Of a DNA stretch of 5,082 nt, positions 4,746 to 5,082 are shown piece by piece; positions within the stretch are counted from its first letter, which is position 1, and each line of letters opens with the position of its first letter. The translations under genes were made by a program, and so were the position numbers. The stretch comes from a bacterium. Its GTDB lineage: Bacteria > RBG-13-66-14. The notes beneath the pieces are model-generated. The model was given only the letters and a program-made list of their open reading frames with translations. It was not told the DNA's origin and made no database searches. Where the stretch lies: assembly GCA_035528375.1 (NCBI GenBank), contig DATKYS010000013.1, forward strand, positions 1 through 5,082. Reading direction: 5' to 3'.

Positions 4746-4964
4746 ATGCCAAAAGAAGAGGTCATCCAGGTCGAGGGGGTCGTCACCGAAGCATTGCCTA
4801 ACGCCATGTTTCGCGTGGAGCTTGAGAACGGCCGGATGATACTGGCCCACATCTGCGGGAAGATGCGGATGAACTTCGTGCGCATCCTCCCCGGCGACCG
4901 CGTCCGCGTGGAGGTCACCCCCTACGACCTCACCAAGGGCCGCATCACCTGGCGCTTCAAATAA
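4746..4964 (+). CDS. infA: Translation initiation factor IF-1
   Basis: IF-1 is a small OB-fold (S1-like) protein that binds the A-site of the 30S subunit during initiation and helps IF-2 and IF-3. The 72-residue length is exactly usual. Recognisable blocks are [21 protein letters not shown] (9-29), [31 protein letters not shown] (33-63) and GRITWRFK (65-72). Cys37 replaces the common Ser in HISGK, and Trp69 replaces the common Tyr in ITYR; both are mild. The ATG is preceded by CCATTAA with no purine-rich ribosome-binding site in the 20 nt upstream, which is odd for a highly expressed gene. It probably has its own promoter in the gap. The stop codon overlaps the first base pairs of a tandem repeat. 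The usual next gene, rpmJ, is not seen before the window ends. Confidence 0.97.
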
Positions 4965-5082
4965 AGGGGGCCCGTAAAGGGGGCCTGTAAAGGGGGGCCG
5001 GTCTGATAGGTGAAAAGGGGGCCCGTAAAGGGGGCCCGTAAAGGGGGGCCGGTCTGATAGGTGAAAAGGGGGCCCGTAAAGG
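4963..5082. repeat. 51-bp tandem repeat array, about 2.35 copies, running off the window end
   Basis: Each 51-bp period is made of two 13-bp units, AAAGGGGGCCCGT, and one 25-bp unit that starts AAAGGGGGGCC and ends in GGTCTGATAGGTGA. Boundaries are 4963-4975, 4976-4988 and 4989-5013; then 5014-5026, 5027-5039 and 5040-5064; then 5065-5077 and a cut unit at 5078-5082. Copies are identical except for one C-to-T at 4986. The first AAA includes the last two bases of the infA stop TAA. The array likely continues beyond the window. It is not a CRISPR: there are no unique spacers and the sub-units share the same AAAGGGGG core. Confidence 0.93.
4968..4986 (+). other. Hairpin formed by adjacent repeat units
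   Basis: GGGCCC (4968-4973) can pair with GGGCCT (4981-4986) around GTAAAGG, giving a 6-bp stem with one G-U pair 3 nt after the infA stop. The same fold can form at 5019-5037 between the next pair of units. No T-run follows, so ordinary intrinsic termination is not supported. Confidence 0.4.

Follow-up and report, generated by a model that had tools for sequence, protein, structure and literature searches.

A compound tandem repeat at the infA stop codon and related G-rich spacers in the ribosomal operons of a bacterial genus

Genes of ribosomal protein operons are as a rule separated by short gaps that change little. Bacterial minisatellites (VNTR) consist of head-to-tail units of 10 to 100 bp, are intergenic, and change in copy number between lineages. 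The closest known system to the locus described here is the GGGNATC repeats of Xanthomonas and Nostoc, which are G-rich, occur on the sense strand close to stop codons, and form quadruplexes in vitro (Rehm et al. 2015, PMC4692102). Their unit is 7 bp, and about 180 loci are found per Xanthomonas genome (PMC4692102). Marine Beggiatoaceae carry TAACTGA direct repeats, which are 7 bp long, intergenic, and mostly situated just upstream of start codons (MacGregor 2015, PMC4679880). Our search of the open literature found Coatesbacteria mentioned by six papers but in no title or abstract, subscription literature being outside that search.

The window, meaning the whole stretch of DNA that we analyzed, is a complete contig of 5,082 bp (C13) from an assembly of 2.63 Mb in 144 contigs. 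We refer to its genome as G000, to two congeners as G001 and G002, and to a fourth species of the genus as G003. The map protein is 89% identical to that of Candidatus Coatesbacteria bacterium RBG_13_66_14, the nearest named genome via map. The window holds rplR, rpsE, rpmD, rplO, secY, adk, map, and infA, with the genes from rplR to rplO identified by eye from sequence and gene order. The infA protein is 100% identical to that of G002, and the following features were recorded at this end of the contig.

4746..4964, + strand: infA (translation initiation factor IF-1, 72 aa), including the TAA stop; Pfam eIF-1a, E = 6.8e-29
4963..5082, + strand: compound tandem array, period 51 bp (13+13+25), 2.4 copies, ending at the contig edge; TRF score 233, 98% matches
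4963..4975, + strand: 13-bp unit 1, AAAGGGGGCCCGT; near-identical first unit in G001 and G002
4976..4988, + strand: 13-bp unit 2, AAAGGGGGCCTGT, bearing the single substitution
4989..5013, + strand: 25-bp unit, AAAGGGGGGCCGGTCTGATAGGTGA, the 13-mer with a longer tail (from the sequence and the TRF consensus)
5014..5064, + strand: second complete 51-bp period (TRF; comparison at distance 51)
5065..5082, + strand: third period, its beginning only, ended by the contig edge

A first-pass annotation had described a near-perfect 51-bp compound repeat of 13+13+25 bp at 4963-5082, starting within the infA TAA. TRF bears out the repeat, as does the comparison of positions 51 apart, 68 of 69 of which are identical (the lone difference is T/C at 4986/5037). 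The start inside the stop codon (TAA, 4962-4964) is evident from the sequence; the array lies on the coding strand, and infA and rpmJ have the same orientation. With up to two mismatches allowed, the 13-mer AAAGGGGGSCCGT matched nine times, every time in the array (0.64 expected), and none of 200 shuffles reached nine matches. As the window ends with the contig, the array is truncated on its right.

Like the GGGNATC repeats, the array sits at a stop codon on the coding strand. It differs from them in its units, which are 12 to 13 bp long (13 bp for AAAGGGGGCCCGT) with ~7 to 9 nt between G runs and thus not heptameric; further, the repeats described here occupy few loci, have longer compound units, and are accompanied by gene-tail duplications, and a quadruplex is not supported for the window array. 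With the TAACTGA repeats (PMC4679880) they have in common that they are short direct repeats, some of them in ribosomal protein operons, with a unit containing stop codons, but the unit here is a different one and G-rich, and the array begins at the stop of the gene that precedes it. The head-to-tail arrangement (periods of 51 and 13 bp, and of 30 bp on the contig C84 discussed below) resembles a minisatellite, in contrast to which several loci here carry a common G-run core and are anchored at a stop codon inside essential operons. What sets these spacers apart from known stop-proximal G-rich repeats is the unit, the number of loci, and the gene-tail duplications.

In G000, rpsM lies on contig C84. 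This contig opens with 164 bp of another G-rich tandem repeat (30-bp unit GTCGGGGGGCCGGTGTAGGAAAGAGGATGA, 5.4 copies), which is followed by rpmJ at position 221 (220 bp in) and then by rpsM. Contigs C52 (with rplF), C13, and C84 align in that order to a single unbroken contig of G002 (C116) at ~90 to 94% identity, a collinearity which indicates that the operon is intact in content in G000. Absent from the window, rpmJ is thus present in the genome, on C84 behind a second, different G-rich array. The infA-rpmJ spacer of G000 spans at least 118 + 220 bp, plus the gap between C13 and C84; the join of these contigs is taken from their alignment to G002, and the array copy number from the assembly. 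As side observations in this region, positions 1-82 of the window did not align to the congener, and the rplF-rplR spacer of G000 contains the beginning of an AAA ATPase gene of low GC content, truncated by the end of C52 (L147, minus strand, 1-402; Pfam AAA_21; best PADLOC model HEC-01A, E 3e-48). This suggests that a candidate defence gene was inserted in the ribosomal operon, unless the contig end is chimeric.

An array placed exactly at a contig end, facing a C84 that also begins in an array, is what one might expect if a false k-mer loop had made the repeat during assembly. However, G001 and G002, two separately assembled congeners, each hold infA through rpmJ in one contig with a like G-rich spacer between the genes, and the first units are orthologous among the species. 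On this evidence an assembly artefact is very unlikely, although the precise number of copies may yet prove wrong. The possibility that the repeat occurs only at assembled contig ends was likewise looked for in the congeners, and in both of them the spacer lies inside a contig. The contig break is most likely the result of the assembler failing in the array, and in our judgment the earlier reading of a slippage-prone repeat at a contig edge was right.

The infA-rpmJ spacer of both congeners is made of degenerate G-rich repeats. It measures 290 bp in G002 (G skew, +0.30; coding-strand runs of at least five G, 8; runs of at least five C, 0) and 352 bp in G001 (G skew, +0.31; runs, 6 and 1, respectively). 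No match to infA or rpsM was found in G003, so the infA locus was compared in the other three species. Behind the infA stop, the first 13-bp units align among all three, the flanking genes being ~90 to 94% identical at the DNA level; since these units are common to the three species, they were present in the common ancestor and are not young. The motif GGTGTACGAAAGAG of the 30-bp unit on C84 occurs, with close variants, five times in C84, twice in G001, and once in G002 (infA-rpmJ), so that units are common while copy number differs.

The spacer is thus held in common by descent, with turnover of its units. Among the three species, the 51-bp block and the five-copy 30-bp unit were found only in G000, and the G001 spacer has its own 79-bp duplication; repeat unit and copy number therefore differ at infA-rpmJ among species (as distinct from strains of one species). 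The recent expansion proposed in the first-pass annotation holds for the 51-bp duplication, which looks young, but not for the old 13-bp units. Repeat units that differ in length may have more than one origin.

Among 10 phylum members outside the genus for which infA and rpmJ were both located, eight had a gap of 23 to 57 bp between them; two, belonging to sister genera, had gaps of 318 and 423 bp that lack the repeat of the window. A pattern of two tandem AGGGGG units had matches in all seven family members and in one of seven genomes outside the family, and the matches included 13-bp-period arrays in G000, G001, G003, G004, and G006. Within the genus, arrays began no more than 16 nt from the stop of a long same-strand gene at infA, at rnfA (G001), and, in G003, at a conserved short protein gene and at a lamin-tail gene. 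Arrays lacking a stop-codon anchor were present on G006 C53, G004 C355, and G003 C401, the last at a contig end.

Nor is the array isolated: related G-rich stretches lie behind several other stop codons of the genus. The element has the form TAR-GGGG(G)-CC-GGT at the stop codon, with coding-strand runs of five to seven G and almost no C runs. In G000, spacers of this type follow rplW, rplB, rplF, rnfA, and a putative rnfG. Behind rnfA, the spacer is tandem in G001 and holds a non-tandem element in G000 (TAAGGGGGCCGGTCGGG) and G002 (TAGGGGGCCGGTCGCG); behind the conserved short protein gene, it is tandem in G003, with the non-tandem element TAAGGGGCCGGTCGGG in G000 and G001. A search for TAAGGGG-CCGGT found tuf of G002, behind which lie 453 bp containing nine G5 runs but not a single C5 run. 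From the same search, TAAGGGGGCCGGT was seen just upstream of a presumed 5S rRNA (identified by eye) on L315 (G000:C39, near 235, minus strand), and the G-rich motif may, going by its sequence, stand within an rRNA operon too.

In the operons that carry such spacers, the remaining spacers are short or lack the G-strand bias: the fusA-tuf spacer has three G5 and three C5 runs, the rpsQ-rplN spacer has one of each, and the map-infA spacer has a skew of -0.31. A sampled survey of G000 found no general excess of G runs behind stop codons (G runs, 2.97 per kb; C runs, 2.56 per kb), and the spacer type thus belongs to a minority of genes, with high expression to be expected for many of these. The G000 stretches sampled came to ~0.48 Mb, and these post-stop surveys relied on rough ORF calling, in some passes of which infA, rplF, or rnfA went undetected. 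Three loci flagged in a scan for G-run clusters (L160, L161, and L175) were rejected as palindromic intergenic sequence or coding DNA. Separately, tandem repeats of ~98 to 106 bp with CCCCCC...GGGGGG inverted segments lie behind rplQ in all three species (L146, 3490-3676; L166, 5828-6491; L124, 1-215). Intergenic repeats of ~30 bp around AACCGAGCGAACCGAGCTACGCC(A/C)CCGGC occur at several places in G002 (L167, L168, and L170 to L172), and a similar stretch lies behind rpmJ in G001.

Similar 12- to 13-bp arrays at other loci in the family might point to a dispersed or mobile repeat family that inserted between infA and rpmJ. Against this, neither a whole-array search nor a 13-mer junction pattern found a second copy of the array elsewhere in the 2.63-Mb assembly, and the units vary between loci and species. 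We saw no coding capacity, no mobile-element ends, no target-site duplications, and no unrelated loci with full-length, nearly identical copies. The 11-mer core GGGGGGCCGGT has 18 occurrences in G000, seven of them being the operon sites, and a reversed control has 12. Matches inspected outside the infA-rpmJ array of C13 and C84 and the rplF spacer of C52 showed no tandem G-rich arrays, which argues against a genome-wide dispersed family of this exact sequence. We regard insertion of a mobile repeat as extremely improbable. What survives of the earlier suggestion of a genomic repeat family is the set of related G-rich stretches behind other stop codons of the genus, without a second whole-array copy in the genome; similarly, a search for the units in the genome and its relatives, as the first-pass annotation had advised, recovered related arrays at other loci of the genus and family but not the 51-bp duplication.

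Some of the duplications include the ends of genes. In G000, the last codons of rplF, its stop, and the G-rich start of the spacer are repeated downstream, the second copy matching the same G002 segment as the first, and G002 itself has a decayed version of this gene-tail duplication. Behind rplB of G002, the gene end (the RAKGQVKL-stop region) is repeated. In G006, which belongs to another genus, the last codons of a short protein gene, its stop (DYYHD-stop or similar), and a spacer form several tandem copies (L282, G006:C45). Tail duplications at rplF, rplB, and a short protein gene thus point to a copying process that acts at gene ends, apparently at scales from 12 to ~100 bp.

Recurrent placement directly at the stop codon and the coding-strand bias would also fit functional mRNA or DNA elements under selection in highly expressed operons, for example a 3'-end stabiliser, a transcription pause, a G-quadruplex, or an intra-operon insulator. 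Such spacers stand behind tuf, rplW, rplB, rplF, infA, and rnfA, the infA spacer is kept in three species though its units differ, and in Xanthomonas and Nostoc, comparable sense-strand repeats close to stop codons form quadruplexes in vitro (PMC4692102). Predicted folding of the window array, however, was barely beyond shuffles (z = -1.7; of 200 shuffled sequences, 12 did as well); a single 51-bp unit gave z = +0.4, and the spacers of G001 and G002 were no better than shuffles (z = -0.3 and +0.2). When quadruplexes were allowed in ViennaRNA, the window array still preferred GGGCCC hairpins, and its shuffled versions formed quadruplexes more often, although quadruplexes were predicted for other arrays of the genus. 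RNA structure of the window array is thus not supported by these models.

Further, Rfam had no match for the array, and the orthologous spacers of sister genera lack the repeat. A promoter and terminator scan found no sense terminator in the array; the lone terminator-like site was on the minus strand (0.5 expected by chance). AAAGGGGG has anti-Shine-Dalgarno similarity, but there is no start codon at a usual distance downstream. We consider selected function of this kind unlikely. It is also doubtful, and slightly more so, that the genus uses a stop-anchored G-rich element (TAR-GGGG-CCGGT plus G runs) to mark selected highly expressed operon genes (tuf, rplW, rplB, rplF, infA, and rnfA), with an action on the transcript or on transcription and with G runs that seed lineage-specific arrays and gene-tail duplications.

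In our view, the array is probably the first part of a long G-rich infA-rpmJ spacer, of the kind found behind certain stop codons of the genus, that grew by tandem duplication and is tolerated within operons. Such a spacer would begin at the stop codon with a TAR-GGGG(G)-CC-GGT-like sequence and would grow by repeated tandem duplication, through polymerase slippage or unequal recombination between G-run repeats. The duplicated units would range from a G-run core of ~12 to 13 bp, through units of 30 to 106 bp, to copies that take in a gene tail and stop codon. In G000, an ancestral 13-bp cluster would have undergone recent copying in the form of a 51-bp block, and, separately, a unit of 30 bp would have expanded just before rpmJ. 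The spacer's position between genes of the same operon would let this growth be tolerated, the genes presumably being co-transcribed and suffering no strong harm from it.

The genus appears to tolerate, or use, fast-changing G-rich spacers of ~190 to 450 bp in its ribosomal operons, together with copies of gene ends. These spacers offer a natural test of whether such sequences disturb coupled transcription and translation, and they suggest a reason for the breaks that metagenome assemblies of these bacteria can show in marker-gene operons.
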